DNA from: Siphonodentalium dalli
Taxonomy: Eukaryota > Mollusca > Scaphopoda > Gadilida > Siphonodentaliidae
Assembly: GCA_032622095.1 (NCBI GenBank)
Contig: CP136066.1
Location: 103,375,319-103,439,318 of the forward strand
Reading direction: 5' to 3'
DNA length: 64,000 bases
The notes under the pieces were generated by a model that saw only the letters and a program-made list of their open reading frames with translations, was not told where the DNA came from and searched no databases. Both the position numbers and the translations under genes were made by a program. Each line of letters opens with the position of its first letter. Within the stretch, counting starts at the first letter, position 1. Below, piece after piece: positions 12,120 through 49,822 of the stretch.

Positions 12120-12961
12120 CCCAGATAGCAATAATATGTTGGCCCAACGTTGGCCCAACCGTTGGCTAAACGTTGGGCCAACGTTGGGTCATACGGTTGG
12201 GCCAACGTAATTTTGCTCGTAGGCCCTACGTTGGGCCAACGTGTTGGGCCTACGTTGGGCCAACGTTGGCAAATCATAAGTTACGTTGGGCCAACGTTGG
12301 CCCACCTATTTTTTATGGTGGCCCCACGTTGGGCCAACGCGTTGGGCCTACGTTGGGCCAACGTTGGCAAATCACAAGTTACGTTGGGCCAACGTTGGCC
12401 CAACCTATTTTTTATGGTTGGCCCTACGTTGGGCCAACGTGTTGGGCCTACGTTGGGCCAACGTTGGCAAATCATAAGTTACGTTGGGCCAACGTTGGGC
12501 CAACCGTTGGCTAAACGTTGGGCCAACCGTTGGCTAAACGTTGGGCCAACGTTGGGTCATACGGTTGGGCCAACGTAATTTTGCTCGTAGGCCCTACGTT
12601 GGGCCAACGTGTTGGGCCTACGTTGGGCCAACGTTGGCAAATCATAAGTTACGTTGGGCCAACGTTGGGTCAACCTATTTTTTATGGTTGGCCCTACGTT
12701 GGGCCAACGTGTTGGGCCTACGCTGGGCCAATGTTGGCAAATCATAAGTTACGTTGGGCCAACGTTGGGCCAACGTTAGGCCAACCTATTTTTCATGGTT
12801 GGGCCTACATTGGTCCAACATGTGTGGCCTACTTTGGGCCAACGTTGGCAAATCATAAGTTACGTTGGACCAATGTTAGCCCAACGTTGGACCAATGTTT
12901 AGGCTAGCCAACATTGGACCAACGGTTGGAGCAACGGATCAACATATTATTGCTATCTGGG
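12120..12961. repeat. Left terminal GTTGGGCCAACG array, bounded by perfect 22-bp inverted repeats
   Basis: Starts CCCAGATAGCAATAATATGT and ends with the exact inverse (12940-12961), with AA on both outer sides, so the 842-bp segment looks like a complete element by itself. It is filled with the 12-bp palindrome GTTGGGCCAACG and variants, ordered into a unit of about 100 bp marked by GGCAAATCATAAGTTACG (at about 12271, 12369, 12469, 12639, 12739, 12850). One block with ATACGGTTGGGCCAACGTAA occurs twice. Open frames through it are low-complexity by-products. Confidence 0.93.
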
Positions 12962-12992
12962 AATGGAAACATAACCAGAGTTACACATTTAA

Positions 12993-13252
12993 CCCTTTGA
13001 TGACAGGAGCTTCCTGACATTTTGCGAAAAAACCCTGTGCTTGGTGCCAATGCATTCTCTTATATATGCTAGTCACCCATAGGGCGCCTCAAGTATATAC
13101 GAGAATGTATTGGCCTAACAATATTTACCTTCATCTTGTAAGCTAGTGCATTCTCTTCTGCATGAGAGGCTATGGGAGACTCGATTACATAAGAGAATGC
13201 ACTGGCACAGGGTCTTTAATGTTGCACAAGCACAGCTCCCATCATAGAAGGG
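12993..13252. mobile_element. TTAA-type MITE (piggyBac-like ends), 260 bp
   Basis: TTAA at 12989-12992 and 13253-13256. Ends CCCTTTGATGACAGGAGC and GCTCCCATCATAGAAGGG are inverted with few mismatches. The inside has hairpins built on GTGCATTCTCTT and CCAATGCATTCTCTTATATA. No coding capacity. Confidence 0.88.
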
Positions 13253-13256
13253 TTAA

Positions 13257-14304
13257 CACTTTTCTGACAAGCATATACTTCATACACATTCATTTGTATG
13301 GATGTTGAGATGATAAATTCAAAAGCCTAAGGCTGTTCGTTGAGCTTATTATCTGAACATCACTATAAATGAATGGGAATTCTTGGATAATTCTCAGTGC
13401 TGTTTTCTCTGCCGGCTGTCTGCTTAAATTTTTGGAACATCCCTGCAAATGAAGATACACTTTTAGAACTGAATTGGGAAATTGCTTTCAGTTATGAATG
13501 GGTTAAATTGAAAACTAATATCTTTGAAGTCATAGCAACAAGTGTCATATGCAACTACATCAGTAATAAATCATTAACACTGGAGATCTCTACCTATATA
13601 ATTTTCTTTCTTCAGTAATGACTTCACATTTGTAGTCAACAAATATTGTGAACTCCCAAAGAATTTCTGGAGAAAATCAGATGAAATTTGTTGAATTGTT
13701 TTATTCCTTAACACTTAATATTATAATAATTATAATCTTATTCAACAATTATAACAATATATAACAACTTTATTTTAATTTAAAATAAGTCAATAAATAA
13801 ATCATTTTAATAATTTGGGAAAAATCCTTAATATTATAAGGACTATGGTCATGGAATCTCAAATTTCCTATAAAAAAACGTAAATAATAAACAACATTTA
13901 GATGTATCCAAGTGTGACTACCTGCTAAACAAGCTAGATAAAACATCATAATTAATACTTGTGACACCAGCAACTACCAACGTGTCCCAATTTTATGACT
14001 GAAATTTCAATGTAAACATATGTATCACAAATTGGCCCAATAAAACATCTTATGGATATCTTACAACCAGACCAGGTGGCAGGCAGATCACAACACAGGG
14101 ATAAATCTTTATTAGATTAGTATGTCTGTCTGGAACAGGCAACCGACCACCCCACTGATTTGATTAAGTGACTAGGGAAGCATACATGTCTACTGGAAGT
14201 GATCTCTTCACTACAATATGACACACACTTGTGATGATGGCCCTCTGACTGGGCTGACTCATTTCAATCACTGTTGACACATGAAAATTGAGATTCCATA
14301 GTCC
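13257..14304. other. A+T-rich DNA, no gene seen
   Basis: Short open frames only. A weak inverted pair near 13290-13375 is the only structure noticed. Confidence 0.5.
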
Positions 14305-14308
14305 TTAA

Positions 14309-14788
14309 AGGTACTCAATCCGAACAGAGGGTCCCCATCTCAACAGATTCCAACAACAACAATCCGATCAGAGGGTCCTATATTACTATTTCTTTGGCTT
14401 TGGGGGTAAAAAATATTTGATTCGAGTCGAGGAACCCATCAAACAAAGCTCAGAGTTATTAGATATTGATTTTTGAAATTTGTTATTTACTCGAGATGAG
14501 TACTAATAATTGCCTTCAACTGCCGTAATCTGCTAGGGATGTGTACACCAAAATCTATTCAAACAGACAAGGATGGATAACTCTAAAATCAAGTGGTAAT
14601 AATAACGCAATTTTGACTGAGTTCTGGGCCAGAAAGTATTCCCGATAATGAAAAATAATAGATTTCTAAAATCGCTATCTAACAAATCTGAGCTTTGATG
14701 GGTGACTTCCTCGACTTGAATCAAATATTTTTGACCCCCGAAGCCATTGAAATAGTAATTGAGAGGAGTTTTATTGGATTGAGTACCT
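14309..14788. mobile_element. AGGTACTCAATCCGA-type TTAA MITE, copy 1
   Basis: TTAA at 14305-14308 and 14789-14792. Left end AGGTACTCAATCCGA pairs with the right end TTGGATTGAGTACCT, and the arms are imperfectly inverted over most of the element (AGAGGGTCC, ATTTGATTCGAGTCGAGGAA and TCCTCGACTTGAATCAAAT). Related copies are at 26769-27207 and 42364-42799. Confidence 0.85.
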
Positions 14789-15014
14789 TTAAAAGATAAT
14801 ACATTTAAATTTTACACATAAACCAGGCCTTAAAATCAGACTTGATCAGAAATTGACTCTCGCAAAATTTGATGTATTTTATGACCTGCAAACTCAGGCT
14901 TTTCATTGGAGTAGGAAACTTCATCGATAGAAATATATAGCATTAAAATGTTGAAATTATTAAGAAATTGCCACACAAGAGCTGGGTTTATCAAAGATAC
15001 CATGAGAGCCACTA

Positions 15015-15208
15015 CTCTTAGGTGCCTAATAATCGTGATGGCCTAATAATCGTGATGGCCTAATAATAGTGATGGGTGGTGATTTAGGCTGAAATTAATA
15101 ATAGTGATGGCAATTTCACTCTATGTCTCAATGCCAAATAATGGTGATCATTGGGAATTTTCTCCAAAATTAATAATCGTGCTGACACTATAATTAGGCA
15201 CCTGAGAG
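15015..15208. mobile_element. TA-flanked foldback MITE (CTCTTAGGTGCC ends)
   Basis: TA-CTCTTAGGTGCCTAATAAT on the left and ATTAGGCACCTGAGAG-TA on the right. The inside has repeated AATAATCGTGATGGCCT units. A diverged relative is at 42861-43052. TA flanks suggest a Tc1/mariner-type mover. Confidence 0.7.
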
Positions 15209-15210
15209 TA

Positions 15211-15605
15211 GGCTCCAGTGAATTGTGGTATTGTGCAACCTGCTTGAGTGCGGTAATTTATAAATAATCTCAACAAAATTGTGGTCCTATTTTTATTACA
15301 CATCACTTGGTTTTGGACAGTAGAGGATTCAAGAAAGTTCCACGAAATAGACCAGATTACTCATCGCACAAGCAGTCTGTTGAAAGTTATTCTAAGATCG
15401 ACAGAGATTGAAAGTTGGTTAATATGTGACAGAGTTTTCAACCTGTCCTAGTTAAGAAAACAGTAATTTCCATACTTCACAGTGTATTCAATTCACACAC
15501 GAGAAGTAAATGTTCATGCAAACTGGTTCAAAAAGAAATAGTTTCTCAAATGTGAAATATATTTTAGAAATTACCAGTGTGATGTAATTATGTGTTATCA
15601 ACGCA
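15211..15605. other. No gene seen
   Basis: A+T-rich spacer without recognisable structure. Confidence 0.5.
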
Positions 15606-15609
15606 TTAA

Positions 15610-15832
15610 CCCTTTCATGACGGGAGCGAGTGCATTCTCTTATATATGGGAGGCTCCCAAAAGGAAGCCTTGCATATATAAGAGAATGAATTGGCTTACA
15701 AGGTCAATATTGTTAGACCAATATGTGTTCTCTTATATAGGCAAGGTTCCCTATGGGAGAATCAAATATATAAGAGTATATGCATTGGAAAAGGTTTTTC
15801 GCAAATTTTTAGGAAGCTCCAGTTATGGAAGG
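15610..15832. mobile_element. TTAA-type MITE, 223 bp
   Basis: TTAA at 15606-15609 and 15833-15836; ends CCCTTTCATGACGGGAGC and GAAGCTCCAGTTATGGAAGG. Same family as 12993-13252: it has the GCATTCTCTTATATATG hairpin arm twice, and the TTCGCAAATTTTTAGGAAGCTCC right-end segment also found near 17945. Confidence 0.85.
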
Positions 15833-16057
15833 TTAAGCCATGTAATTTTGAGGTTATAGTCGGAAACTGAACTAAAAGAATACATAGTCATACATTGTAC
15901 ATTATTTAATTTTGTGTCAAAATTAATGCTCCTATATTCAAAATGACATCTGAAACATAATTGATTACTTAGCAATGTCAATCTAGTAACACAATACTCA
16001 CAATGACATAAAGATAGCCATTCATTTTAATTTCATCATTTTAGAATATATAGAGGA

Positions 16058-16212
16058 TATCTGGTGTTTTTTAGTGGATACCGAAGATTATCTTATTTGT
16101 GACCATGACAAATGTCTATTTTTTCGCGAGTGGCTTGCCACGACCAAAAAATAAACATTTGTCACGGTCACGAATGAGATAATTTTAAGTATCCACTCAA
16201 AAACACTAGATT
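16058..16212. repeat. Foldback element with arms of about 70 bp
   Basis: TCTGGTGTTTTTTAGTGGATAC on the left is inverted as GTATCCACTCAAAAACACTAGA on the right. The inner arms GTGACCATGACAAATGT and ACATTTGTCACGGTCAC also pair, around a CGCGAGTGGC loop. Confidence 0.8.
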
Positions 16213-16820
16213 TTCTATTTATTTTACGTGTGCTTATGCCCATTATAAAAACGGGTCACATTCAAATCTAACATTTCATAATGGAATTATACGAATGCTA
16301 CTATATATGGTTAACATTTCACAATTTTATAATAGGTATTCAAGAAATTCAGATACGACATAGACGCGAATGTGAAAGTGTAATTTTCTATATCTTCATA
16401 GCTAGCGGTGGATAACGATTATTATCTGTTAGCTATTTCTTCTATAATCTATTGTTGAGCATATAATAAAGGTCTATTTCAGTATTGACAACAATTGTGA
16501 AAGAATAGATAAAGTTTTGGATAAATCATACACAATTAATACATTGAAGGCCCATTCAGATGGTGATGCGACTTCTGAGTCAACGCTCAATTAGGACAAA
16601 TGTAATATGACTATATAATGAATTCGCTCCATGCAAGCATAACGCAACCAAAGTGGCATCGAAAGAATAGGATTTGTACTAATTTAGCAATGTAACGATA
16701 AGCTTTCACCACAATATGAGTATGATTCATTGTCGGTAACAACCTACAAGTACACAAGGTAATAATAGTTTCATATGAAAGAATAAAGTTTGTGTGTCAC
16801 AAAATATACGTAACATTCAA
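16213..16820. other. No gene seen
   Basis: A+T-rich spacer, only short open frames. Confidence 0.5.
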
Positions 16821-16821
16821 G

Positions 16822-17437
16822 TTGCCATCTCTCTGGCTAACAAGGCCACTCTCTGGCAGACAAAGCTGCATCTATGGCCAGAACATTGTTTTTTTTCAGG
16901 AGGCTGCAGGCGTTTCATTCAATTAAAAACAGAGTGGACAGGTATGTATAACCATTAACACATTCATTTTACTGACTAGATATTCTCCTTAACAACAGAA
17001 ATAGCGCACAACCAGGCACAACTAAAAACAATTGGCTTCCCAAAGCAAGTGGGTATTATTAGATATCATCAGAAATTGGTAATTCTCCATTGATTATAAT
17101 GATCTTTATTGAAAAACAAGAGTGGTGTGTTGTATTTATCTTCCACTACGATCCTCGTTTTTAATGTGTCACTGGCATAAAAGAAATGGGCAGGTGAGTG
17201 AAAAAGTCATACTCACTCACTTTGGGTTCTTAGTTGTATGCTATTTCTGTTGTTAGGGAGCATGGGTATGGTCAGGTTATACTCACAGTACAGGGTGAAT
17301 GTGTTATTTGATACATACCTGTCCATTCTGTGTTTATTTATTTAAATACCCCCAGCCTCACAAAAAAACAACATTATGGCCCTAGAGGCGCCTTCTCTGC
17401 CAGGGAGCAGCCTAATTGTCAGCCAGAGAGGAGGCAC
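16822..17437. repeat. Foldback element, arms of about 140 bp
   Basis: Left arm TGCCATCTCTCTGGCTAAC ... GTGGACAGGTATGTATAAC and right arm GATACATACCTGTCCATTC ... GTCAGCCAGAGAGGAGGCA are imperfect inverted repeats around a middle of about 300 bp. No coding capacity and no clear target duplication. Confidence 0.72.
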
Positions 17438-17839
17438 ATCGAATGGTAGGTGTGTACATAGAACATATCAATGCTGTACATACTAGACTCATCAAAATGT
17501 CAATCGCAATTCAATGTCTGCATCTGTCAAGACAAATTAAAAAAAATCGTCAATTGCTTTGGTTTAAAGTATTATTTCCAGTTCAGTATTGATGCATACC
17601 AGTATATTGGGACATAACCGGGCAACTACCAACATAAGTTGACAGTCTATTGGTTTGGCGCCCATACATAGTAAATATCAATGTACATACTGGACTGAAA
17701 AAAAACTAAGTCACTGATGGGTTATCGAGATATCAATAATCGCAATTTAATGTCTGCATCTGTTAAGACTGTATTGACAAATTAAAAAATTCATTGTTAA
17801 TAGCTTTGATCAGTATTGATGCATACGAGTATATTAGGA

Positions 17840-17974
17840 CATAGGGAGTATCACATATATAAGATAATGAACTGGTTTACAAGGTCAAGGCCATTGTATT
17901 CTCTTATATCGCATACATATCAAAATGCATTGACACAGGGTTTTTGCAAATTTTCAGGACACTCCAGTCATGAG
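17840..17974. repeat. Relic of the TTAA hairpin MITE family
   Basis: Has CATATATAAGATAATG.ACTGG, GTATTCTCTTATAT, TTTTTGCAAATTTTCAGGA and an ACTCCAGTCATGAG end next to TTAA (17975-17978), matching the right half of 15610-15832. The left end is lost. Confidence 0.6.
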
Positions 17975-17978
17975 TTAA

Positions 17979-19211
17979 AATCTTTCAACATGTTTAATCC
18001 ATTTTTGACAAGAAAACTGACATGTGTAGATTTTCAAAGAAAAGTCGACTATGCCATTGACATCATAAGTTATTATGGTCAATTGAAAGTAACATAGTCT
18101 GAGTTTATATCTATGACCCTTTGTTTTCAAGGTTGAATATATACACCGACGACACACTTGTGTGAACGCTTTTGAACATAAGGCATGACTTCAATCACAC
18201 CATAATAGCAAGAGATACAGTATGCCTTGAGAGCTATACTTACAAGGTTGAACAAGTACCATATAAACTAAAGTGTTCACACAAGTATGTCGTTCTGTGA
18301 TTATTACACACCTCTAAATCAACCACTTAATGTTTATTGTGTGATACAGTATCTATAAAGGAATTATGACAAGTGTATAATAAAAGTCAAAGCCACAAAC
18401 GTCAGACTATGTCCCCGTCAATGTATACTTAAATTTCCATCAACAGCTTTGATCCTGATTGTTAAATATGTGTTAAGGTTATCAACGGTAGGGCTGCAAC
18501 AAGAGATGTGATTCGCAATTAAATGTCAAGTACATTGTGATATGTACGACATGTATAATGTCATTTCCTGCATCACTTTAACCGTTAATTTAAGAAATTA
18601 GGCAATTCCAAGTCGACCCACATATTGTCTTCATAAAACTAAGATTATCAATCACCGACTATTAATTTATTAATATTTGTAATTATAAGCAATCAACATC
18701 GTTTCTGATGCATCTGTCGGCATATAGAAGAGTCTGATGGCGAACTACATGTACATACTTAGTATAAGTTGAATTGAAAATGACGTTGATTGCATATATG
18801 ATGCAGTGAAATAATAATGATCCATAGGTGCAGTCCTATTATAATTCAAGGGCGGTTGCAGTTTTTATTTGACAAAATAATGGGAAAAAAATGAGAGATG
18901 GATTCATCAATCCATTTGACATTTGACAATTAATCATCACTTATGTTAACTATGCTATGTTAACTCAGTTAATAAAATTTGAGTTCAGTCCCAATAATCA
19001 GCCAATAATGCTACCATTCTTCTTATTTGTCACACATTTTACTGACTGAGCAAATTGGGCATGGTCTGAAAAATATATACCACATTCACAGAATCAAGTA
19101 TTCAATATGTATTGCTCTTTTAGCAAATGAAGCAGTATCATGAGATGCTATGGCGTATTTAACAAGTAATTGTCAAATGTCAATCAGACTGGCATAATAA
19201 ATAATTAGACA
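17979..19211. other. A+T-rich DNA, no gene seen
   Basis: No splice-bounded coding exon or clear repeat was recognised. Confidence 0.5.
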
Positions 19212-19215
19212 TTAA

Positions 19216-19571
19216 AGGGGTACTGTGCACTAAATTCGGCCATTTTTGGGACCATCTCCTTTTATTCTCAACAGAATATATGCAACAAATTAATTAATTT
19301 GAGCCATGGATGAGTCCAAAATATACTCATTTACCGTATGAATGATACAATTAACATGGTAATTATAACGAAAATGAATTGATGACTCCAGCCATAAATT
19401 CATTTTCGTTATAATTACCATGTTGTTTGTATCATTCATACAGCACACGAATGTATTTTGCACTAATCTATGGCTCAAATTCATTCATTTGTTGCATATA
19501 TTCTGTTGAGTATAACAGGAGAATCTCCGAGATGGTCCCAAAAATGGCTGGATTTAGCGTACAGTACCCCT
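19216..19571. mobile_element. Long-armed TTAA foldback MITE, 356 bp
   Basis: TTAA at 19212-19215 and 19572-19575; ends AGGGGTACTGTGC and GTACAGTACCCCT. The arms pair over about 150 bp each (including GGTAATTATAACGAAAATGA and its inverse) around a small GATGACTCCAGCC loop. A transcript would form a long hairpin. Confidence 0.88.
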
Positions 19572-19580
19572 TTAAGGTAT

Positions 19581-19705
19581 AAGGAATAATCCTTCACTCA
19601 CTTTTGCAGTCCAGCACTCTGGTACCAAATCACACTGGAAAAATCCAGTGTGCTTAAATATCAGAGTGTTGAACTGCATAAATGAAGTGCAGAAGGATTA
19701 TTCCT
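19581..19705. repeat. Hairpin repeat next to the TTAA MITE
   Basis: GGAATAATCCTTCACTCA with GAAGGATTATTCC, and CAGCACTCTG with CAGAGTGTTG, form nested inverted arms around CACACTGGAAAAATCCAGTGTG. Confidence 0.7.
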
Positions 19706-19904
19706 CAATTCAATCTACTTAGACTTTTCATAATGCTTCTTTGTTCTTTCCATCTCTCATCTTCTTCCCACCATTCCTGTCTTTCGCGAACCGCAACCAT
19801 CCTTGAATAATCCCTTTGATTTTTTCATTAGTTAGATTGGCACAAACCTGGTTTTGCCGAACAGCACCTGCATACAATATGGTTAAAGTATTATTACAAT
19901 ATTA

Positions 19905-20030
19905 GTTACCTTCGGCAACATCGGGGGTACATGGAGATTTAATACCTGGATGTCGATTTTAATGAGGGGTTCAAAAAGAGACATCCAGGTATTAAATCTC
20001 CATGTACCGCATGATGTTGCTGGAGATAAC
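19905..20030. repeat. Foldback element with near-perfect arms of about 45 bp
   Basis: GTACATGGAGATTTAATACC then TGGATGTC pairs with GACATCCA then GGTATTAAATCTCCATGTAC. Outer arms GTTACCTTCGGCAACATC and GATGTTGCTGGAGATAAC pair less exactly. Confidence 0.8.
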
Positions 20031-20354
20031 GATTTTGTCCCCACAACAATAACCATATCTCCTTAATTTAAGTGTGTTTTTGGCGTGCGAAAGCAACGTC
20101 ACGATTGGTGGAAACTGCCAGTTCAAGGGTCATTCATATACTCCCGATGTTTCACATGCTCATATACCCCCGATGTTTGGCGCACGTTCTCTTATACCCC
20201 GATGTGAAGGGTGACGGGGGACATAGTGATTTAAACGTGGCGTTGTAGCCAATCAGATTGCTAGTTACAACCGGATGTGGGGACAAATGTAATTGAACAA
20301 TTCTGGGCTGTATAATATTTAAAACCTGTTCTATACTATAACTGGATTCTCCCA

Positions 20355-20545
20355 TCAGTTTTTAGCTCACCTGAGCAGCCTTCATAATTGGCTACAGCAA
20401 TCAGCATTGCCGAAGCAATTTGCTGAAGCAAACTGGGCCATGGCATACTATTGCCGTAGCGGATTGCCGAAGCAAAACAATCTGAATTAAGTCTCAGGTG
20501 GAGCTATAGTCATCACTCCTCATCCGTCGTCCGTCCATCCATCCG
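20355..20545. repeat. AGCTCACCTGAG repeat end with a nested element of about 100 bp
   Basis: TTTTTAGCTCACCTGAG and CTCAGGTGGAGCTATAGTCA are continuous in the inverse copy at 26620-26690, but here are split by about 100 bp (GGCTACAGCAATCAGCATTGCC ...). That insert recurs inverted at 33250-33350, so it looks like a small mobile repeat. Confidence 0.65.
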
Positions 20546-20639
20546 TCAACAATTCTTAAACCTCTTCTTCAGAACCATAAGGCCAAAAAAAAACTCTTTG
20601 TTTCCGATACCCTGCCCGCCTGAGATTTTCTTGCCTGCC

Positions 20640-22080
20640 TCAATAGTCAAAAGTTAACTGTTAGAGTGTCAATGTGAATATTTATTGTTTTTCCCCAATC
20701 CCGAAAGCAAAAATAAGTCAGTTATTGGTAGAGAATCTCTACTAGAGATCATACTGCAGAGTAAATGAATTCAAGGGACAGCATGTTTTTACCCAATGCT
20801 TGGCTTATTTTCATTGCACATTTATCTACCATATTCCATGGGCTGTAACTACACTATTCTATCACTTACGGCTGAAAAGTTAAAAAAAAAAAAAATCCCT
20901 GCCTACCTGTCTGGAAAATTACCCCATTGTTATCGGAAACAGAAGTGTTTTGTTTTGGCCTAAACTGAATGGATTCATATTTGATGTGGATGTTCCCTAG
21001 GTGACACACATTAAATTTCTTCTCAAGAACCAATCGGCCTATTTAGCTTATGTTTGGTATGGAGGGTCCTTCGCTGACTGAGGTTTAGATTTGTAGTCCG
21101 GATCTATGTCAGAACAACTTGCATCCATACTCTATGGAACACAAGCAAATCAACATCCATTTCTTAATTTATTAATATTAGATATCAGAATAATTAGTAA
21201 ATTCAGTCTATGAAAATAGCACCCAGAATTGGGCAGAAACAAAAATAATTGGCAATTTCTATGTCAATAACTGGTAAAAAAATAGGTGGACCCAGGGTTG
21301 CGATTTTTTTAAAGAAATATAAAAAACCAATTTTTTATTTAAATCTGATTTTTTAAATGGTGTAGTTAAAAGTGCTGAATCTGAGTGTAGTTACAAACAA
21401 TATTAACAATGTTAAGCAAAGCAGGTCATTGCTGGAGGAGCAAAAGCAGTATGCCTGAAGTTTCTATAGGGTTGCAAATTACTGTAAAATTAACTCTTTA
21501 CCAGTTGTGACGTAATATCAAATGTTGCGAGATATCTGGTGACATATTTTGACACACTAATTATAAAACGCTCCAGCTATATGGCTATATGCAAAATATG
21601 TCAAATCATGTCACCAGGTGTTTAATACCCCTCGACACAAAGCCAATGTTCAGCAAGTTATTATTTGACAGCTCTGCTATATAATTGATATTAATGGGAC
21701 AGCAATGAGGTCTTATCTTGATGGCTGTGCTGTTGGAATAATTTGATACACTATTATTTTAACTTAAATTGGACTCTTATTAACCCAAATATTCCATGTC
21801 CCGTCACTGTTTCACATTTAATCCAAGGCTGTGCTGGTTCAACATTACAGATCCTGCGCCAGTATATTCTCTTATATATGCAAGTGACCCTTAAATTCCA
21901 ATAATCATAGTAATTTACAGTCGCCAATGGATGGGTTAACATCTGCCAATCATGATTGGCCTCTCGTTTAAAATAAAATTCATTCATTTAAATCTTGATT
22001 TAAATAAATGATTTAAATTGTCCAACCTTGGGTGGACCAAACCCAAATTAGAAATTGAGCCAATTGAATAAAAATTAATA
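20640..22080. other. No gene seen
   Basis: A+T-rich DNA with scraps of repeats, including a CTCTTATATATGCAAGTGACC fragment of the hairpin MITE family near 21870. No further exon of the neighbouring minus-strand gene could be identified. Confidence 0.45.
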
Positions 22081-22361
22081 ATCATAATTTACCATTTACT
22101 CCCACCAGAACCTTTTCGCAAGCTGCAATTCCATTTTTATGGTCTCCCATCCCAGCCCAATTCAGTTTCTTGGCCAATTCATGGCTCACCAGCGCAGCCA
22201 TGATGTTTCTGACCACCGCTTCATCGTTCCGCCCACCGAGAACACTAAGTTGCACTATCTGAAATAATTCAAAAAGTGAAAAAATAATTAAGAATTTGTA
22301 AATGCTGCAAAGGGGGGGGGGAGGATGGGTGGTGTCATTGAACATTCTGACAAGAAGGCTC

Positions 22362-22694
22362 TAAAGATGGGCAGTACTCGGTATTTACCGTGCGGTATCG
22401 GTATCAGCTTAATACCGATTTACCGAACCGAATAAAAACTAAAAATACCGTATTTTCGGTCATGAAATTATTATGTGTTGCCAACGTATATGCGTGACCT
22501 TGTCACCGCGGCCATGCTATGCATGAATTGTATGACCGGTCAACCGTAAGCAACGAGAATCGGATAATTATGATAACTCAATGTAACAAGTCGGTACTAC
22601 ATGTATTAGTCTATTACAATGTTGTTACATCAAGGGCGCAGCTGCCCGAGGGCATCTTTGATCTTTACGACATATTCAATACCGCCCATCTCTA
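22362..22694. mobile_element. hAT-type MITE with 8-bp target duplication
   Basis: GAAGGCTC at 22354-22361 and 22695-22702 flanks ends TAAAGATGGGCAGTA and TACCGCCCATCTCTA. The 8-bp duplication and the AGATGGGC end are typical of hAT elements. It sits in the last intron of the DUF4806-type gene and has no coding capacity. Confidence 0.9.
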
Positions 22695-36771: not shown

Positions 36772-37321
36772 CTCTTGGGCTCCAATTTTTTGAGTCCAAA
36801 TAAACATGCATGCACGTTTATTATTTTCTTGGGAAATTTCCCCCCTGCATAGTGCTTATTTGGGTCTGCACGTTTATTAATTTTCAGGCTATGAAAATTG
36901 AAATCAGCACAAACTCAAGATTTATATGTGAATTATGACTCCGATACCAAAATGATGAGTTTATAGTATTCTTTATGCATGTATATGACACACATGTGAA
37001 CATTTAAATACTGAATAAAACACCACATATGTCGATATGACATAACACATACTGTCAATGTCATTACTGATTACTATACTAATAACTACTAAGTACTATA
37101 AGTATAACTATGTTGATTACTATACTTGACCTACAGGCTACTGGAACTGTAAAAATAATATGTTTAACAGTTGATGTTTTGCTCAGAGTTTCTCCTGCAC
37201 TATTATTTGGGTCTGCACTTTTATTAACATTCAATGAAATTTCCCTCCTGCACTATTAGTATTAGTATTATTGCAATATTGTTGGGGTCTGCACTTTTAA
37301 GTTTTATTTGGAGCCCGAGAC
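36772..37321. mobile_element. CTCTTGGGCTCC-type element, copy 2
   Basis: CTCTTGGGCTCCAATTTTTT on the left and TTTTATTTGGAGCCCGAGA on the right, with the same TTTGGGTCTGCAC and CCCTGCACTATTATT inner segments as 33353-34158. No clear TA duplication remains. Confidence 0.72.
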
Positions 37322-39170: not shown

Positions 39171-39173
39171 TGA

Positions 39174-39233
39174 GATTTAGTCGGAAATATGGCTTTCCGA
39201 TGAATGGCAACAAGCCATATTTCCGACTAAATC
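39174..39233. repeat. Hairpin GATTTAGTCGGAAATATGGC
   Basis: GATTTAGTCGGAAATATGGC and its inverse GCCATATTTCCGACTAAATC flank a short loop. The right arm with CTGAAAAGTTA recurs inverted at 48820-48905. Confidence 0.75.
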
Positions 39234-40388
39234 CTGAAAAGTTATCCATAATTCTGCTGTGGTTAAGGAGTCGATTAATTAGAGCATTACTGTATGGTTT
39301 ACTTATTGACATAAATCAGGGGAAAAACCCTATTTTCATATTATCAGCATCCCTGTCCAAAAAATGGTGTGTAATTACTGGAGCTTTGGGGTCTCAGTCC
39401 TGGAGCTCTAGTTTTTCTTATTAAATCAGCATCTCTTGCACAAATCTATAGTATTTCCATGATCATATAGTGTGAATGTGGTGTCACCGAGGGCTTTCTT
39501 CCCTCATATGGTGTGCCTGTATACTCGAAAATTGAAGGAAATCAATGTCCCTCCGACTAATACAGAAAGTAATGCTAATGCAAGTAGCCCCAGCTAATAT
39601 ACACCGAATATAATATAATGCTATCACGAGTCGCTCCAACTAAAACAGAAGGTGATACTATTGCAAGTCAGCCATTTTGATAAAGAAGTTGGGCTAGCTC
39701 CCTACCCAATGTACCCATCCAAACCAATGAAAGCACGAGGTGATATGACAAAAGGAGTTAATGCTAAGTTATCGAGAAACCTATTTATTCACCAGGGGTG
39801 TTTTGTTACATATAACCATGAATTGTGCTTAAGCGCAATTGATTGCACTTAAGCGAAAAAAATTACACTTAAGCGCAATTAATTGCCCTTAAGCACAATT
39901 AATGATTAAATGTGAATTTGGCCTCCCATATGGATGAAATTCAATTTATCATATAATTTGGCCATAAAAGCAGTTTCATAATTATCGATAATAGACACGT
40001 TTAATATCAGCGCGCGCGATGACGTCACAGCGTTTTTCAAATAACTTGCGATCGTTGTAGTTTATGATTGTTGTTTTCGATGAATATTTCGCGTTGCTTC
40101 GGGTTTATTTGATCATGTGATAAAAGGTATCTCACACTCGTCCTATGTTATACGTAATTTATCAACCTCGTCCTCTAAATTCTATTTGAGCCTCGGTAAA
40201 CCTCGGCTCAAATCGAATTTAGTGAACTCGGTTGATAAATTCCGTATAAAATAGAAACTCATGTGAGATCCTCTATTTACACCCCAACAACACCATTCTA
40301 TTTAGCTCTGTTTGAACAGTTGGGTCCACATAAAGTCCCAAAAAATAAACTAATTCTATTCTAAACACTCTTTTATTTATTTTTTCCA
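39234..40388. other. TatD gene 5' flank and likely intron end
   Basis: No other gene seen. A run of GCACTTAAGCGCAATT-like direct repeats lies at about 39828-39900. A TTTATTTATTTTTTCCAG tract ends at 40389, a strong splice acceptor 20 bp before the TatD start, so an upstream untranslated exon is likely. Confidence 0.55.
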
Positions 40389-40409
40389 GGTAAATTATAT
40401 TGTGAGGAA

Positions 40410-41294
40410 ATGGCCAATAGTGCCATAGAAATGGAATGGCCGCAAGTAGCTTCAGGCATATGCCCAGATTTTTTGTTTTGTGAATGTAATAAGCGCAGGT
40501 GCAATTTAAAGGAACCATTGTTCGATTCTCATTGTCACCTGGACTTATTACATCACCACCATCACACAGAATTGTCAGATATTTTGTTGCCTAGGAATTT
40601 TGGGGGATGCATTACAAACTTTTCTCATCCCTGGTTTCATCGCATGGTACCTAAAATTCTTATGCAACAGAATGTCTTGCCGGTCTGGGGTTCAGTTGGC
40701 ATTCACCCCAAGTTTGCCAGTTTTTATAACCAGCGGCGCTACACTGACAGAATGGTAAATTATCTTTACCGTCCTGACATTGTTGCTGTTGGGGAGACAG
40801 GTATTGACCGTTTCCATCTGCAGACGAATCCCCCTCTGAATATTCAGAAGGAATCATTTCGTTTTCACTGCAGATTAGCGGTAAACCACTGCCTCCCAAT
40901 TGTTGTACATTGCAGGAAGGCTGAGAAAGATACTCTTTCTGTAATGAAAGAGTGTCTTCCTCAGAATTTCAATATTCATTTACATTGTTTTACTGGGGAA
41001 TGGGAATTTGCGCAGCAGTTTCTAAATTATTTCCACAATCTTTATATTGGTGTAGCTGGCAAGACTGACCTTGCTCCGGTGAAGTCAGTTATTGCTAATA
41101 CACCAATAGAAAGATTAGTTATAGAAACTGATGCGCCATTCCTTGTCCCTCCAAAGGCAAAAGGTAAGTATTCACACACCCATCCTGGTCTGGTTCTGTA
41201 CCAGGCTAAGGCAGTGGCTGACATGAAATCAATGTCAGTCGATGAGGTGTGTCGCCATACAATAGTTAATGCAAAGACACTATATGGTTTGTGA
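40410..41294 (+). CDS. TatD-family metal-dependent nuclease, single coding exon, 294 aa
   Basis: TatD proteins are TIM-barrel nucleases that use divalent metals to degrade DNA ends, in repair or apoptosis-linked DNA breakdown. All the usual metal ligands are visible: DSHCHLD (H41, H43), GETGID (E129), VVHCRK (H167), LHCFTG (H192) and ETDAPFLVPP (D241). Length is normal for the family with a short N-terminal extension that is Cys-rich (C18, C24, C26, C31) and a His5 run at 48-52. The ATG at 40410 is the first in frame after a strong splice acceptor at 40389. Nothing is broken. Intronless coding sequence inside a region full of transposons suggests either a host gene whose intron lies in the 5' untranslated region or a retrocopy or cargo gene. 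Nearest relatives are probably TATDN-like animal proteins; orthology was not tested. Confidence 0.93.
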   Translation: MANSAIEMEWPQVASGICPDFLFCECNKRRCNLKEPLFDSHCHLDLLHHHHHTELSDILLPRNFGGCITNFSHPWFHRMVPKILMQQNVLPVWGSVGIHPKFASFYNQRRYTDRMVNYLYRPDIVAVGETGIDRFHLQTNPPLNIQKESFRFHCRLAVNHCLPIVVHCRKAEKDTLSVMKECLPQNFNIHLHCFTGEWEFAQQFLNYFHNLYIGVAGKTDLAPVKSVIANTPIERLVIETDAPFLVPPKAKGKYSHTHPGLVLYQAKAVADMKSMSVDEVCRHTIVNAKTLYGL

Positions 41295-42359
41295 GCAAAT
41301 ATCTTGTTTCACCAAATATTTATATATTGTATATATATTAATCTATTGTTTCACCAAACACAATTAGGGAATAAGCGGTTTTGTGAAGTCAGACATCTAT
41401 GTTTGTATATAGTTTTTTACAGCAAGTTTTAGCTTAACTTGATGAAGTCAATTTTGAGCTATTTCCATTGGTTGGTCTTGGTGTCTATCATTTGTGCGTC
41501 CGCCAACAAATTCCTTTAGCACAACCTCACATCCATCATCTGATTATCACTAAACTTCATGTGGATCTTCACGTGACAACTTGAAGGGAACAAATTTCGT
41601 TAAAGACATATGTACTTGTTCGGGTGTGTGAAACTGATAAGTTAGTGTTCAGGTGTTATGCCAACTGGAGGAATTTAGCATTCTACTAACATCACCGAAA
41701 ATCTCAAGCAGATCGACTGTACCACTGCATAGAAAACATTGTCTGAACTACGCTAAATTGTAAATATTTAGTACTCAAATCGGGACGCCTCTATCGGCGA
41801 TAAACTAACGAAAACGATTTCACCATCGACAGTCACTGCATTTAATTAATATATTAGAATGACGGTGTGAGTTGTCAATTTAGATATAATAATTGTAAAA
41901 ATAGCTACTTTGAACAAGATTATTCTCCATTTATATTTGATCACCCAAACCGGTGTGTTTCACATCACTTTAAAAAACTTGGCCACTAGCGGTGACGTTG
42001 GATTTCACATTTGAATCCATTGGCATACCCTGCAGCCGACATTTATTGGAGATATGTTTTGAAAATTTACAGGCATGTTCAGGATCGCTTCTAGATGGGA
42101 GCTATCAAATTTGAATGATATTCGATTTAAAACATTGTTGCCGAAGCCATCTTTGATTTTATTCTGCATCACTAAGTACTTTGTCATACGGTATCCTACA
42201 TCAAACATTTCTTATTCATTTGATACCAAGCTTCATATGGCTCTTCGAGTTGACCTCAGGTATTACTGAAACATGTAAATTTGCTGCAGTCCCAAATGCT
42301 TTATTGACTAATGTATGACAGTATCCTTTCTCCAAGTTGAACTATGGTGTTTCGGCACT
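41295..42359. repeat. TatD 3' flank with a TTTTAGCTTAACTTGA repeat
   Basis: About 41430-41600 (AGCTTAACTTGATGAAGTCA ...) matches 45945-46060 (AGCTCAACTTGACCAAGTCA ...), a dispersed repeat. No gene is seen. Confidence 0.5.
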
Positions 42360-42363
42360 TTAA

Positions 42364-42799
42364 AGATGCATAATCCGAATTAACGCTCCCAAATTACTAT
42401 CTCTGATTTCGGGGGTAAAAAATATCTGACTCGAGTCGATTAACCCACCATATGATCAGTTTAGAAGTTTTTTAAATTTGTTATTTTTCGAGATGTCTAC
42501 TTATTTGTGGCCCAGAAAAAACTCGTCAAACTGATGGTCTTGGACAAATTGCGGATGAAGATGGAAAACCTTCAAATTAAGGGGTAATGTGGCCAAATGT
42601 TGGGATACTCAAGTGATAATACGGCCATATTTCGTTGAACATCATGTTGATAAATAACACGTTTTGTGAAATTTTATACCATTGTTGACAGTGGTTAGCA
42701 TTATTTTGTTGTAGTTAATCGATTCTGATAACTAAAGCATATTTTGAAGAAATGTTGTAACTGTATGATATGGGGACCGTCTGATCGGATTGAGTACCT
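42364..42799. mobile_element. AGGTACTCAATCCGA-type MITE, copy 3 (diverged)
   Basis: TTAA at 42360-42363 and 42800-42803; left end AGATGCATAATCCGA, right end GATCGGATTGAGTACCT. Inside, GACTCGAGTCGATTAACCCA and TTTCGAGATG match the other copies. Confidence 0.78.
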
Positions 42800-42860
42800 T
42801 TAAATTATTTGCTATTGGCATTCGATATCAATTGAATACCATGGATTATGAGATTATTTA

Positions 42861-43052
42861 CTCTCAGGTACCTTAATAATAATAGTGATTACCTGATAAT
42901 AGTGATTACCTGATAATAGTGATAGGTGAGATTGTTGACTGAAATTAATAATTGCAATGTCCCTGTTTCATTACCAAATATTAATGATGGCTGATATTTT
43001 TGGTTGAAATTAATAATTGTATCAACACTTTTATTATATAGGCACCTGAGAA
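42861..43052. mobile_element. TA-flanked foldback MITE, relative of 15015-15208
   Basis: CTCTCAGGTACCTTAATAAT on the left and ATAGGCACCTGAGAA on the right, with repeated AATAATAGTGATTACCTG inside and TA next to both ends. Confidence 0.68.
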
Positions 43053-43059
43053 TATGCAG

Positions 43060-45620
43060 GATGGCTGTTAACAAGAGAATAGTTTCATCATATTTAAATA
43101 TATGTTTATAGCTTTAGTATGTAGTGACTAGCAATCTTGTTTTAAGGAGCAATGCATCAGTTTCGGTAATAGATGTATCATATAGAATTATGATACTTGA
43201 GATTTCATCATGCAAGCAGACATGAGTTACATGACAAAATATTTTTATTATGCAAGCAGACAGAGGTTAGGAATAATTGTAAATCAAGTCTTAACACAAA
43301 GTGTGGTTGCTGTGGAAGGGGACTCTGATCATAAATAAAACTCTAAAAGACTATGATGTCCATTCTGAGATTATCTGAGTACATGTAACCTGACTGAGAA
43401 CAAGCATGTATTAAAGTGCCTGGTATGTTGGAAACAGTTGACTTTGGTAGATGGTTGCCATTGAAGTCCATGTACTGCAAATCAAGCAGCAACACAGCCA
43501 GTATGAGACATCTTCATCGTGACATAACTGGTGAGTTGTGCATCGATGTCGAGTGAGCTGGCAGTGTGATTATGTTTTATTGAAAGCATTGGTACATATT
43601 AAATGCATGTAGTTGCAGAAATGTGTCAGGTTTTTTGTCTTCAGAATTTTTACGCAACAAAATTATCAGTAAAAATGGGATGGCACACCAATGGCAAGTG
43701 TTGGCATTGTCTGGTGTTATTGTTGTCTGAATGAATATGATAATTGTCAAAATATCTTTGAAGTGACATATTGTTTTGACTTCATTTATAATTAGACCCT
43801 GATCCTTTATAGACTATGAAAGGACCTGTAAAGTCAGTGATAATTTTGATGACATTATTTCTGCTTTCATTTTGTTAATAACATTAAATATTAAACAGTG
43901 GGTAAGTGTGAATCAGCACATAAATTTCTGTCAGTTGCTACTTAGCTGCTGACACTTTTTTATTCTAACTTAAATTGTGGATATTAATAATGATTCTAAG
44001 ACTTAGTTCTACACGGCTCAGATATACAGTACGTCACTGCAATTTTGCCTCTTTTATATTCAAATTAAGTTTAGATTATGGCAAATACAGGGCATAGCCA
44101 TCTTTTCATTTATAAAGAAAGGACTAGTAACAACGGGAAAATATCCCTATTCACCAATTCATTTGTTTATAAAGCCTGATTATAAATGGTTGTTCATTGT
44201 CTAAATGACAAAACAATTCAATTAACAGCAGCACAAATTGATTGGAAGACATTTGTATTATGAATCTTTTAAAAAAATCATCTTAAAACTGTGTGCTGTT
44301 TTGGCTGGTGCCAATAACAAAAATCACAATCAGGTTTATTATTCATTTGTCTGATTGGTGACAGAGTGAATATAGTATTGTTACTATTGTCAGGAATTTA
44401 TTTTACAAAAGGAGGAGCGGTAACAACCAGTGTATCACTTGTGGGCCAAGATAATGTGTGGAAAACAATAGTTGTGCAAAGTTTAATTTCTACTTTTCGA
44501 AACAAATGCAACTCCTTTTTTATTTCTTATGTAAATTATCCAAAGTTGATCTCCAGGATTCAGCCATCCTGCAATCTGGTCATATGTCTGGAGCACATGT
44601 AATATTAACATAATGATAGTCTGTTCGCCTGTCAGTCCTGAACAATTATAAATGCAATCATAGTTGATCGGCGGATTATTTGGATTATATGGTACAGTCA
44701 TTAATTGCAGACCATTAATTTAGAGAATGAATACAATTTTTAAAAGAGTAAAGTAACTTTCTTTTTCTTTCATTGATAGTGCTTTTTTGGTCAATTACAA
44801 TCTTCTAAGGGTATGCCTGTTTATGATGGCATGAGCAGACTAGGACTCTTGATGTGTTATATTATACTAAACATATCAATGCATGCAGACCATGAAAGGT
44901 GGATTAATTTTTGGTATTTTATGTCACTTATAATGTGGAAGATATAATCTCAACCTCAAAAACATATTAAACAATGAGCATTGGCTCAGAATTTATTTGA
45001 CATAAACAATTATAGTGTTGACAATTTGACATGACACATTATATCAGATGTCATCAAGAAATTATGACACTAGTCTACATCACATCAATAGTTTAGGATC
45101 TGACTGTGCAGTGCCACAATGAAGTACATGTACCTGTATTTGTTTGTATGTGACTTTATATACTGACACATTTTTGTTGAACATGAGGATGTCAGCTACA
45201 GTAAGCAAATAGCCGTCAAGCTTTACTCAGTACCCTGGCTTGAACAATGGCTTGATTATTCAATCATTGTGGTCAATTTATGAATCAGTTAAATTGAATT
45301 AAATCAAGTTGTTTTCTGGGGTTCCAAATACTTGTTTCATTATGTGTAATTTGTTGTTCTAGATGAACGATATGTAAAAATGTTATCGATTTTTATGAGG
45401 AAGTCGATTAAGAAGATACAATAATATAGGGAAACGTTTTATAGAAAAAAACATATTTGCCACCTGGTAAATTTGTTTAATAATTAAAAGAGAAACATAT
45501 GTATACTGCTCCATATGTGTTTTCTTTGTTGGAAAGTTAAACAAATAGACATAAATTTTAATTGTGAATTTTCTTAATATTTAAAACCATTCAGAGATAT
45601 ACTAGTATATACTTCAACTT
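43060..45620. other. No gene seen
   Basis: A+T-rich DNA with only short open frames; no splice-bounded exon was recognised. Confidence 0.45.
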
Positions 45621-45639
45621 GCAGGGGATACAATGGTCC

Positions 45640-46060
45640 TCTGTCCAATCGTCCATTAGTCAGTCCATCCATCTGTCTGTCAATTCACACATATACTATG
45701 TATCTCAGAAATGATATACCCCATCAGAGTGGCGTTCAAAGAAGGGTCCATTGATGTTATTCACATCCCCCCTTGGGTTTTCCATCTTTGTTTATGTGCA
45801 GAATGTCATGTTGGGGGTATATACCAGACAGTAGATCAATTGTTGTTAATTCAGGCTTACCGTGACTAAAACGGATCTTGTAAGATGTATATATGTACAG
45901 ATTATTGAAATTCTATTTAAAATTCTCAGTTGTGTTGAACTGTTTTAGCTCAACTTGACCAAGTCAAGTTTCAGCTATTGCCTTGTGTTGGCGTCTGTCG
46001 TCTGTTTGTCAGCAATTTCCGTTAGCACACCCTACAGGTCACATCTCTCATCCGTTAAAA
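45640..46060. repeat. Dispersed repeats (TCCATCCATCTGTCTGTC and AGCTCAACTTGACC)
   Basis: 45640-45830 shares CCATCCATCTGTCTGTCAAT, CATTGATGTTATTCACAT and GGGGGTATA with 48200-48670. 45945-46060 matches the repeat at 41430-41600. Confidence 0.5.
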
Positions 46061-47830
46061 AACATGGCTGACAGCAGCAGGGTTGGGGTAATCTTAATCA
46101 GTAATCATAATAAAAGTAATTGATTAAAAAATTTGGAGTAATCGTCTGTAATCATGACATTTCTTGATTTCAAATGTACCTGTAATCATGATTACATTTT
46201 GATTACTTTTTGATAATTTTACTAAAATATCCATATGGATGGCTATTGGATACTCAGTCTCATACTGTGGAGTGTGCAAAGATACAAACAACATATATAT
46301 CAGAAAGTTAGTTCAATTTTCATGTGTTATGTTAGTGGTACAGTGTGTATGAACATTCTGGCATTGGACACAGATAACAACACACAAAGGTTGAATACAG
46401 CATGAATGGCAATAAACTTGTGATACAGACAATTAAATGTTCTAATATGAAAAAAATAGGCTAGCGGACTTCAATTAGGATTAAATTGAATTGGGACTGC
46501 AAGCTGCAGACAATGGCTTTAGAGTCACACTGGTACAATAGGGCTAATTAACTGAACAAAGCAGGTATGATGTACATTGGTAGACCTAATTAGCTGGTTT
46601 GTCATTTACTGCACTCATAGAGTTAAGCCTAATTTAATCCTCATTAGGATTAACAACGGATGATTATAAAATAAATCTTAGTGTTATCTTCATTGTGTTG
46701 GGTAATGAATCTAACAGAACATGAAAATAATTTATAATTGTTTCTGGTGATATTTTCATAAATATTATGTGCTAGTTTGAATGCACGTAAGAAAATTAAA
46801 AATATATTAAAATATATTTACATAAATAAATACACATTATGACATAAAACATAATGTATTCCCAATAAGTTGGTGCATAACTTCATGATGAAACCTTTCC
46901 AATACATGTAAATGTAAAAAGTTAATATGTTTATTGCTTGCTTCTTTCTATTGTTTCAGTCTTTTCTTGTTTCCATGTTATGTGGTGATGTCTTTATTCG
47001 ATCAAATTTGATATGTTAATTTGAATTATCACCGCAGCCATCTTGGATTTAAAATATGAATCTCATCAGCACACCATGCAGTTCACTTTTATTGGAGTAT
47101 TGATTGAAAATGTACAGGTGTGTTTACTAACTTTACTATTGTTTAGGAGCCATAAAATGTCCCAAATTGATTGTATGTATTATTTGAAATAAAATCAATA
47201 TTAATTGATAGAAGACGGGTCATTGATACATTTTTATTATTTTATACCCATCGAACTATATTATTATAGTAAGGGGTAGATCATCTTTAATAATAACCTC
47301 ATTTGACAGTTAATTTTGTAAATAAAAAACGTGACACCAAATAGATCTGGTTAATAACACTGGCCTAAAATGTGTGGATTGCATATAACCCAACAGCAAT
47401 CTCCAGACATTTTTACAAGCAAGGATATTTCAAATATATTTGGACTAATCTTGCATGATAAATACTGGTATGTTACAGTTATACATGTACACATACCATA
47501 TATATTTCAATCAGTGCGATCCAACTCTACTGGTAAGTGAAGTCTTATGAATTCATGCAGTTGCTCAATATTGAAATATTTTTTTCATCATTTTAGAACC
47601 ATAACATTGTCTTCAATGATGTATCGATACTGTTAAAATGATCTATTTGTGTTATCCCTTAATATAGGGCTTTAAAATTGACATTCCAGTGAAATTAACA
47701 GAAATGATTGCCATTCTGAAGTTGGCTGCAAAAATCAATGCCACTTTCTAATGCTCAATATGCAGAATAATTTGTAAGTTTAGAATTATATGTTGCAATT
47801 TGAAATGCTGTCCCAAATATTATATATTAA
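46061..47830. other. No gene seen
   Basis: Includes a GTAATCATGATTAC-rich low-complexity patch at 46090-46220; otherwise A+T-rich. Confidence 0.45.
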
Positions 47831-47834
47831 TATT

Positions 47835-47915
47835 ACAGTTTTAACATTCGTTCAACATTTGGCCAACATTAGGCCAATGTTGACATGCCAATTTTGGGCC
47901 AACATTTTACGCTTC
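47835..47915. repeat. Decayed GTTGGCC-type array
   Basis: CATTTGGCCAACATTAGGCC and TTTTGGGCCAACATTTT resemble the terminal arrays at 12120-12961 and 49374-49820 with C-to-T-like decay (AACATT for AACGTT). It may be an old remnant of the same repeat type. Confidence 0.5.
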
Positions 47916-48199
47916 AACTGCTGAAGCCATTTTCACTATAACACTGTAATGCATGTGAGATGAAATACACTCAACTTGAGTCTGACTTTATACACAAATA
48001 ATTCCATCTCTAACTGTCTTTGCATTGAGTTTGCAACTCTAAACATTGGTGTTAAATGTCGATAATGGATTTATCACATGCATTAATTAAGTTACACAAT
48101 CTTCACTTTATTAAATATGGTTCTGTAATTCCACTGATTAAAAGCACAATTAGATAAGAAAATATCTTTACAGGTTTATTCGGGTTTTAATAATAATTG

Positions 48200-48680
48200 T
48201 TATATCCCAGAAGATGGGGGGGGGGGTATACTGGATTACATGCATCCTCCATCCATCCGTCTGCTCATATATCTCAACCATGGGTTATCAGATGGATGAT
48301 CAATGAAATTTGGTATGCAGGTTTGTCATCAGAAGAAAGGTTTTCAAAATAGGGTTCATTGAGGTTGTTCACATTTTCTGCTTAAGTGTTATCCCTCTTT
48401 GTTTTTCTGAAAATGTTGGATTTCTGTCCATCCACTCGTATTTCTCAACTATGGGTTATCAGATCTTGATGAAATTTGGTATGCAGGTTTGGCATCAGGA
48501 GTGCTTTCAAAAGAGGATTCATTGACGTCATTCACATTTTCCGTTCAAGAGTTATTATGCCTTTTTTATCTGAAAATGTTAGATTTCCATTCGTCATTTG
48601 TTAAAATTTTCACAATTTGGTTTCCGACAAGCCCATGTTTCAATTTTCACCATGGGGGGTATCCCAGCACCCGTGGTGCA
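48200..48680. repeat. Diverged tandem repeat, units of about 170 bp
   Basis: ATGGGTTATCAGAT..TGATGAAATTTGGTATGCAGG and GGATTCATTGA.GT..TTCACATTTTC occur twice (about 48280-48395 and 48450-48550). A G-run GGGGGGGGGTATA precedes. No gene. Confidence 0.65.
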
Positions 48681-48819
48681 ACCTCTTGTTTAATTTGAAT
48701 TAATATAGAGATATAACTTTATATTTCATGCGGAGATGAGAATTTGTACAGGGTAATTTTACCCGGGGAGTATTAATAGATAGGCTGCGTTGATCTCATA
48801 TGTCTTAAAGTTACAGTAA

Positions 48820-48915
48820 TGCCCTAAGTAATCGACCACAGCAGAATTATGGGTAACTTTTCAGGATTTAGTCGGAAATATGGCTTTTTGCCATTCAGCG
48901 GAAAGCTCTCGGGTT
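48820..48915. repeat. Inverse copy of the 39.2-kb repeat
   Basis: CAGCAGAATTATGG.TAACTTTTCAGGATTTAGTCGGAAATATGG is the reverse complement of 39213-39262. Confidence 0.8.
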
Positions 48916-49373
48916 AAAAGGGCACTAATATTTCATTTAAAAATATTTTGGCTATAGATGACCAAACGGCTGGACTCCAGGGGGGTCAATTCACCCAGGG
49001 AGTGTCATGGGATAGGTGTCGTTGATGCATCATATGTCTTAAAATGGCACTAATAATTAATTTAACTAAATAATTCATTATATACCAAAAATGGTTGGAA
49101 TCAGGTCTTGGAAAATTGATTAACAAGGGAAAATTTGATGTGAGGAGTGTCATGGTATAATTGTTGTTGGCCTCATTGACTCAAGGGGGCACTAATAAAC
49201 AATTTTGTTTAAAAATTAATTATATACCCAAAATCAGGTTGGACCCTGGTGATGAGTTGCATTAATAAAGGTATTATCTCTTGATTTTCCTAATAAATCA
49301 ACTGAAATAGATATTCTCAATTTATTTGCAAAATTAAAAATACACTGTTGAAATTTCAATTAGGTAGGTTGAT

Positions 49374-49820
49374 AGGTTGGGCCAACGGTTGGCTAAGTGT
49401 TGGCTTGCCAACGTTGGCCCAACGTTGGCTTAATGTTGGCTTGCCAACGGTTGGCTAAGCGTTGGCCTGCCATCGTTGGCCCAACGTTGGATTGCCAACG
49501 TTGGCCCAACGTTGGCTTAACGTTGGCATGGCCAACGGTTGGCATTGATACGTTGGGCCAACGTTGGCTTGCCAACGGTTGGCTAAGCGTTGGCTTGCCA
49601 ACCGTTGGCATTGATGCGTTGGGCCAACGTTGGCTTGCCAACGGTTGGTTAAGCGTTGGCTTGCCAACGTTGGCCCAACGTTGGTTTAACGTTGGCTTGC
49701 CAACGGTTGGCAATAATACGTTGGGCCAACGTTGGGCCAACGTATTTTTTGCCAACCGTTGGCAAGCCAACGGTTGTAACGTTGGGCCAACGTTGGCCCA
49801 ACGTATCATTGCTATCTGGG
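49374..49820. repeat. Right terminal GTTGGGCCAACG array with outer CCCAGATAGCAAT end
   Basis: Built from CGTTGGCTTGCCAACGGTTG, TTGGCCCAACGTTGG and GTTGGGCCAACG units; ends ...ACGTATCATTGCTATCTGGG at 49820, the inverse of the left end at 12120. The inner edge near 49374 has no CCCAGATAGC terminus, so this side is one-ended. The internal units differ from those of the left array (GCTTGCCAACGG rather than CAAATCATAAG). Confidence 0.92.
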
Positions 49821-49822
49821 AA

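Follow-up and report, generated by a model that had tools for sequence, protein, structure and literature searches.

In the genome of the scaphopod Siphonodentalium dalli, we analyzed a stretch of 64,000 nucleotides on contig CP136066.1 (the window; C6:103375319-103439318), in which a 37,701-bp block at positions 12120-49820 is inserted at a single AA of a satellite repeat. The block very probably represents a family of giant cut-and-paste DNA transposons. Its features, including those defined by comparison with three other copies described below (C5, C6b, and C6c), are as follows, in window positions.

12118..12119: AA, left target duplication; the other satellite units of the window (11/11) hold a single AA there
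12120..12961, plus strand: left end, 842 bp, consisting of an outer terminus, a GTTGGSCCAAC palindrome array (24 sites), and an inverted inner terminus
12962..35752: interior shared, with gaps, with C5 and partly with C6b and C6c, at ~95% identity (copy comparison)
22085..23833, minus strand: DUF4806-like protein in two exon-like pieces (23531-23833 and 22085-22360), from a hand-joined Pfam match and tblastn
30878..32938, minus strand: EnSpm-type transposase in an intact frame of 686 codons, its predicted fold RAG1-like and its C terminus BAH-like (sequence and predicted structure)
35753..43378: 7,626 bp found in none of C5, C6b, and C6c, the only large gap in the copy comparison
40365..41294, plus strand: intact TatD-DNase-like frame, 309 amino acids (Pfam, 4.5e-49), possible cargo
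43379..49370: right interior shared with C6c except for 47149-47586, the last 1.2 kb also with C6b (copy comparison)
49371..49820, minus strand: right end, 450 bp, consisting of a GTTGGSCCAAC array (11 sites) and a terminus
49821..49822: AA, right target duplication (junction sequence)

Insertion site and ends of the block

At the left junction, the flank ends in GTACAA and the block begins with CCCAGATAGCAAT at 12120; at the right junction, the block terminates in ATTGCTATCTGGG at 49820 and the flank resumes with AATTGAGG. An initial annotation of this DNA had described a satellite unit split here with AA on each side, and all 11 other units in the window are indeed uninterrupted at that point: the two flanks joined through one AA (400 bp) align to each of them without a break at 98.8 to 100% identity, and the junction-spanning sequence GTACAATTGAGG is exact in nine, with GTGCAATTGAGG, which differs by one change, in the remaining two. 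The same annotation held that rejoining the flanks gives an exact 1633-bp unit; the uninterrupted match stands, but the figure is only approximate, because the next unit lies 1,636 bp from the junction and neighboring units are spaced 1,623 to 1,642 bp apart. The outer ends of the block are inverted, agreeing at 31/34 and 37/40 positions, in keeping with the earlier description of about 34 bp with three mismatches. Both also lead into arrays, as had been noted: 24 copies of GTTGGSCCAAC lie in 12120-12961 and 11 in 49371-49820, with none in the 36,409-bp interior or in the flanks, and one-mismatch matches to GTTGGGCCAACG number 72 in the window versus a mean of 0.15 in shuffled sequences.

A third terminus, overlooked in the initial annotation, lies at 12949-12961 in the opposite orientation; it matches the left end perfectly over 22 bp, with AA next to it, and 12120-12961 by itself therefore resembles a complete 842-bp element. 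No inner terminus was found at the right end of the window copy. The inner terminus and the sequence AATGGAAACATA that goes with it are repeated in C5, C6b, and C6c and, with one change in the terminus, at a further left end at a separate site (C4:118129621), where the left interior is 98% identical. Because the inner end and the adjoining sequence recur in these copies, we rejected the reading of the 842-bp piece as an unrelated later insertion beside the giant. The piece is missing from a 16.2-kb element on C2, in which the left end meets window position 13168 after ~55 bp, and it is not recognizable in the copy at C2:200966412; for the copy at C4:212978911, no left end was found within the 1.1 kb fetched. 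The more diverged copy on C2, at C2:200965300-200966480, has AATGGAAACATAACC without a preceding inner terminus and with array sites upstream, possibly an earlier form or the result of decay.

Copies elsewhere in the genome

The genome searched comprises 2.23 Gb in 9 contigs, and the exact 13-base end was counted in it 90 times (37 + 53), compared with 0 + 6 for a reversed-pattern control. Among the first 8 of these 90 ends, 5 lie near one or more full array sites; the other 3 do not and are apparently unrelated. The sequence retrieved covers six long pairs of facing ends (the 90.7-kb pair by its ends only), four short-pair places, and three larger regions. The initial annotation had proposed looking for other loci at which these ends and arrays bound tens of kilobases with 2-bp duplications, and two complete giants of this kind were found: C6b (C6:138844358-138876291; 31,934 bp) with TA on each side and C6c (C6:127921184-127960110; 38,927 bp) with AT on each side and a left terminus damaged past CCCAGATAGC. 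The incomplete copy C5, known from its left end at C5:178646104 onward, matches window 12517-35752. Altogether, 28,655 of the 37,701 bp are common to at least one of these three copies and 14,835 bp to two or more, with long matches averaging 94.9 to 95.5% identity. C6b is without window 26200-48125 and C6c without 22907-43378, and they hold ~14 kb and ~20 kb, respectively, that are absent from the window copy; the pieces private to C5, C6b, and C6c have few long matches to each other and are largely dissimilar. The annotation had named as contrary evidence the occurrence of the ends solely on sub-kilobase elements with unrelated DNA between them, and what we find instead is partly collinear copies of 31.9 and 38.9 kb. 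Since 7,626 bp of the window copy, the TatD gene among them, occur in none of the three others, part of its length may have been added after insertion.

A probe from window 12962-13962 gave 85 matches from the 40 scored of 9,245 candidates, most of them to a dispersed repeat inside the probe; among the scored matches, eight places besides the window (83 to 98% identity), one of which is a tandem duplicate, reach the junction or extend beyond the repeat, and a ninth (76%) extends slightly. The 2-bp duplications match in 8/8 long pairs counted, one pair being left out. In a simulation, 90 random ends formed 0.054 adjacent facing pairs at 5 to 60 kb (maximum, 2 of 2000) versus 5 counted, a number that omits the window copy and C6b because inner ends intervene in them; four contig sizes in this simulation were guessed, and the guess for C4, which measures 299 Mb, was too short. 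A 2.63-kb stretch with the C6b left end and its flank is doubled (C6:138875040-138877671 and 138880898-138883528, 5.9 kb apart, 99.9% identity), which may be a recent tandem duplication or a haplotype error, and the right-end region of C6c occurs twice with an identical flank, which may also be a haplotype error.

The same ends, with 2-bp duplications given here in parentheses, bound five shorter elements of 23,368 (CA), 16,185 (AC), 15,722 (AT), 9,899 (AT), and 14,576 bp (GA), of which the 15.7- and 9.9-kb elements are counted as one site because their flanks are shared. These five have mainly end regions and dispersed repeats in common with the window copy, their interiors being mostly different; in the 16.2-kb element, the frames at C2:77802803-77803877 resemble, by eye, what we take to be a DIRS-type tyrosine recombinase. 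Some of the short facing pairs are simply double-ended left ends, one of 477 bp (C5) and one of 549 bp (C6b, twice); another, of 116 bp (C3), has mirror-image flanks. At C1:25528190-25618912, two ends separated by 90.7 kb have mirror-image flanks, with zinc-finger frames on each side; the arrangement suggests a large inverted duplication and not a single element.

Transposase and other genes

The transposase that the initial annotation placed inside the block is an intact 686-codon frame of the EnSpm/CACTA-Transib clade. Its D206, D284, C303/C306, H499/H503, and E523 are invariant across 54 sequences, and the probable catalytic residues among them are assigned from position. The EnSpm/CACTA-Mirage-Chapaev-Transib (CMCT) clade is defined (PMC12730594) by a DDE transposase in which C(2)C and H(3-4)H lie between the second D and the E; the window protein has both, and its modeled structure is RAG1/Transib-like. 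Named protein relatives include sequences from Lingula, Holothuria, and fishes. A sequence comparison with the PDB gave 0 matches, and the transposase alignment gave 19 pattern matches in viral_contigs, none of which was confirmed; neither the end pattern nor the array pattern occurs in viral_contigs, nor the end pattern in genome_contigs.

The DUF4806 match (E value, 4.2e-05; 24.2 bits versus a cutoff of 25) was obtained with the hand-joined sequence only; the separate pieces gave no DUF4806 match, one of them giving 4HBT_2 at 0.0033, below the cutoff. Matches by tblastn are present in 4/4 copies compared, and the ratio of nonsynonymous to synonymous substitution rates (dN/dS) is ~0.18 in one of the pieces. 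The TatD frame has no tblastn match in the C5, C6b, and C6c stretches or in the other elements fetched and is so far confined to the window copy. An inverted pair around it (39192-39294 and 48812-48906) was set aside as the ends of a TatD element, being a dispersed repeat that occurs also in C6b, C6c, and other loci, and a CtaG_Cox11 Pfam match (0.02) was disbelieved as below the cutoff. Neither polymerase B plus integrase of Polinton/Maverick type nor a Starship tyrosine recombinase was recognized by eye among frames of at least 55 amino acids, Pfam covering four read-through minus-strand frames and single frames for this question. Short elements with AGGTACTCAATCCGA ends at TTAA are nested at 14305-14790 and 26765-27211, the former being absent there in C5. 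Outside the block, a different unit of this satellite is interrupted by a piggyBac element at 3215-9079 with CCCTTTGAACCCT ends and TTAA on both sides, whose transposase is split across two frames and has protein relatives that include sequences from Styela, Patella, and Lineus.

Interpretation and alternative explanations

Units that are now 31.9 to 38.9 kb long, a portion of which may have been gained since, were inserted at single points with a 2-bp duplication. Partly collinear copies with their own 2-bp duplications largely support the movement as a unit that had been proposed, and we conclude, with a probability of about 0.83, that the DNA at window 12120-49820 belongs, as one of several copies, to a family of giant cut-and-paste transposons in the CMCT clade. 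The window transposase presumably moves these ends, and CMCT membership by transposase holds if that enzyme is the family's own. Several observations weigh against this conclusion. No right end of C5 turned up in the 54 kb retrieved on that side of it; the window transposase is present in only 2/4 copies compared, ~17 kb from the right end; the C5 version of it is disrupted by two stops plus a frame break and has diverged from the window version without constraint (dN/dS, 1.1); a 697-bp facing pair on C2 is without matching flanks; and the termini of the window copy are CCC..GGG, not the CA..TG found "in most cases" in the CMCT clade, a point on which the other copies provide no independent test because they were located through CCCAGATAGC itself. 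Moreover, the 9.9- and 15.7-kb C2 elements, which have the same ends, hold broken pieces of a different EnSpm transposase, 27 to 28% identical to that of the window and situated ~0.9 kb from the right ends of those elements; the enzyme that acts on the ends may therefore be of this C2 kind. It is a serious, if tentative, alternative that the giants are nonautonomous and moved by such an enzyme encoded elsewhere, the window transposase and TatD being passengers; this would be compatible with movement as a unit and agrees with the absence of the window transposase from two giant copies, but the sole intact EnSpm-type frame among the elements fetched is that of the window copy, within the stretch shared with C5 and at the same place.

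The transposase might instead belong to a separate nested element of 13 kb, whose inverted arms (20395-20489 and 33256-33350) are similar over ~95 bp and have TA on both sides, one of them 412 bp upstream of the transposase frame; we regard this as improbable, given that C5 is without the left arm though it has the transposase and the right arm, and that the short repeat occurs elsewhere in the C5 stretch. It is similarly doubtful that a short element entered the satellite first and that 36 kb came later through recombination between end arrays, with no transposition. The arrays are repetitive and able to recombine, and the 842-bp left end looks complete alone, but other giants sit, with both ends, at unrelated sites, each bounded by a 2-bp duplication of its own, and the window right end is without an inner terminus. 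A misjoining of arrays and satellite during assembly would be in line with the difficulty of assembling such sequence and with the possible haplotype errors at C6b and C6c, but is very improbable in view of the agreeing duplications in all eight long pairs and of interiors shared at several sites.

The favored CMCT-clade family shares with EnSpm/CACTA elements the DDE transposase bearing the motifs C(2)C and H(3-4)H, a RAG1-like predicted fold, subterminal arrays, a short target duplication, and a possible accessory gene; it differs in its size of 32 to 39 kb, its CCC..GGG termini, its 2-bp duplication, and the double-ended short element that serves as its left end. The duplication, 2 bp in all eight long pairs, falls within the 2 to 5 bp of the CMCT clade, whereas canonical EnSpm/CACTA elements have CAC(TA) termini and 3 bp; we therefore file the family as CMCT clade, EnSpm-like by transposase, and not as canonical CACTA. 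In maize Ac/Ds macrotransposons, the outer ends of two nearby elements could bound a large mobile block with a complete short element at each boundary; here, such an element is seen at the left and none at the right, and the fused unit forms a family at several sites. The Ising transposon of Drosophila (DNA between foldback elements; PMC6431247) is likewise a large block with a foldback-like end, but the window family is double-ended at the left only. KolobokP composite-like transposons (PMC9587614) are animal elements with a terminal part itself bounded by short inverted repeats; each of their ends is a direct long terminal repeat and their transposase is of the Kolobok type, neither of which applies to the window copy, its left and right arrays being different and its inner terminus present at the left only. 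Teratorn (PMC10175614) is also a giant DNA transposon of an animal host, but it combines piggyBac with a herpesvirus in ~180 kb; no such genes were recognized by eye among window frames of at least 55 amino acids, and the window target is AA, not the TTAA of piggyBac and Teratorn.

For movement, the transposase, perhaps with the DUF4806-like protein, would bind the palindromic arrays at both ends, pair the two outer CCCAGATAGC termini, and excise the whole unit, which would then be joined to a target with a 2-bp stagger. With less confidence, we propose that the family was founded by macrotransposition: because the inner end and the next sequence recur in other copies, the transposase may have combined the outer end of a neighboring 842-bp short element, used as left end, with the right end of a larger element, which would have made the intervening DNA mobile. 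The proposal rests on the structure of the two ends: in several copies, the left one consists of a complete short element with AA after it, while the right one is single. A similar structure might also result if a deletion had fused the left arrays of two elements. Later copies would have kept the fused left end, each losing or gaining interior pieces. A fuller scenario is conceivable, though we advance it tentatively: a single macrotransposition in an animal, followed by amplification of a self-moving giant of ~30 kb or more, in which a CMCT transposase with the RAG1 fold and a BAH-like tail that reads chromatin acts, along with a DUF4806-like partner, on palindromic arrays, and which can bring intact genes, TatD for example, to new sites.

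Cut-and-paste elements of the CMCT clade are usually small. The largest EnSpm/CACTA elements that we found in the literature, in the accessible parts of the sources, are those of 16 to 20 kb in the red alga Chondrus, families that the review calls significantly enlarged (PMC6431247), and Tgmt* in soybean, at 20.5 kb (PMC2613891). The open-licence literature, as far as its accessible text goes, yielded no animal example of EnSpm/CACTA type this large, and no paper was found there that links EnSpm, TatD, and transposon or EnSpm, BAH domain, and transposase. An animal family of 32 to 39 kb in which the possible origin of the left end can still be read makes the growth and gene carriage of such transposons testable, and the subject bears on the transposase clade related to RAG1.

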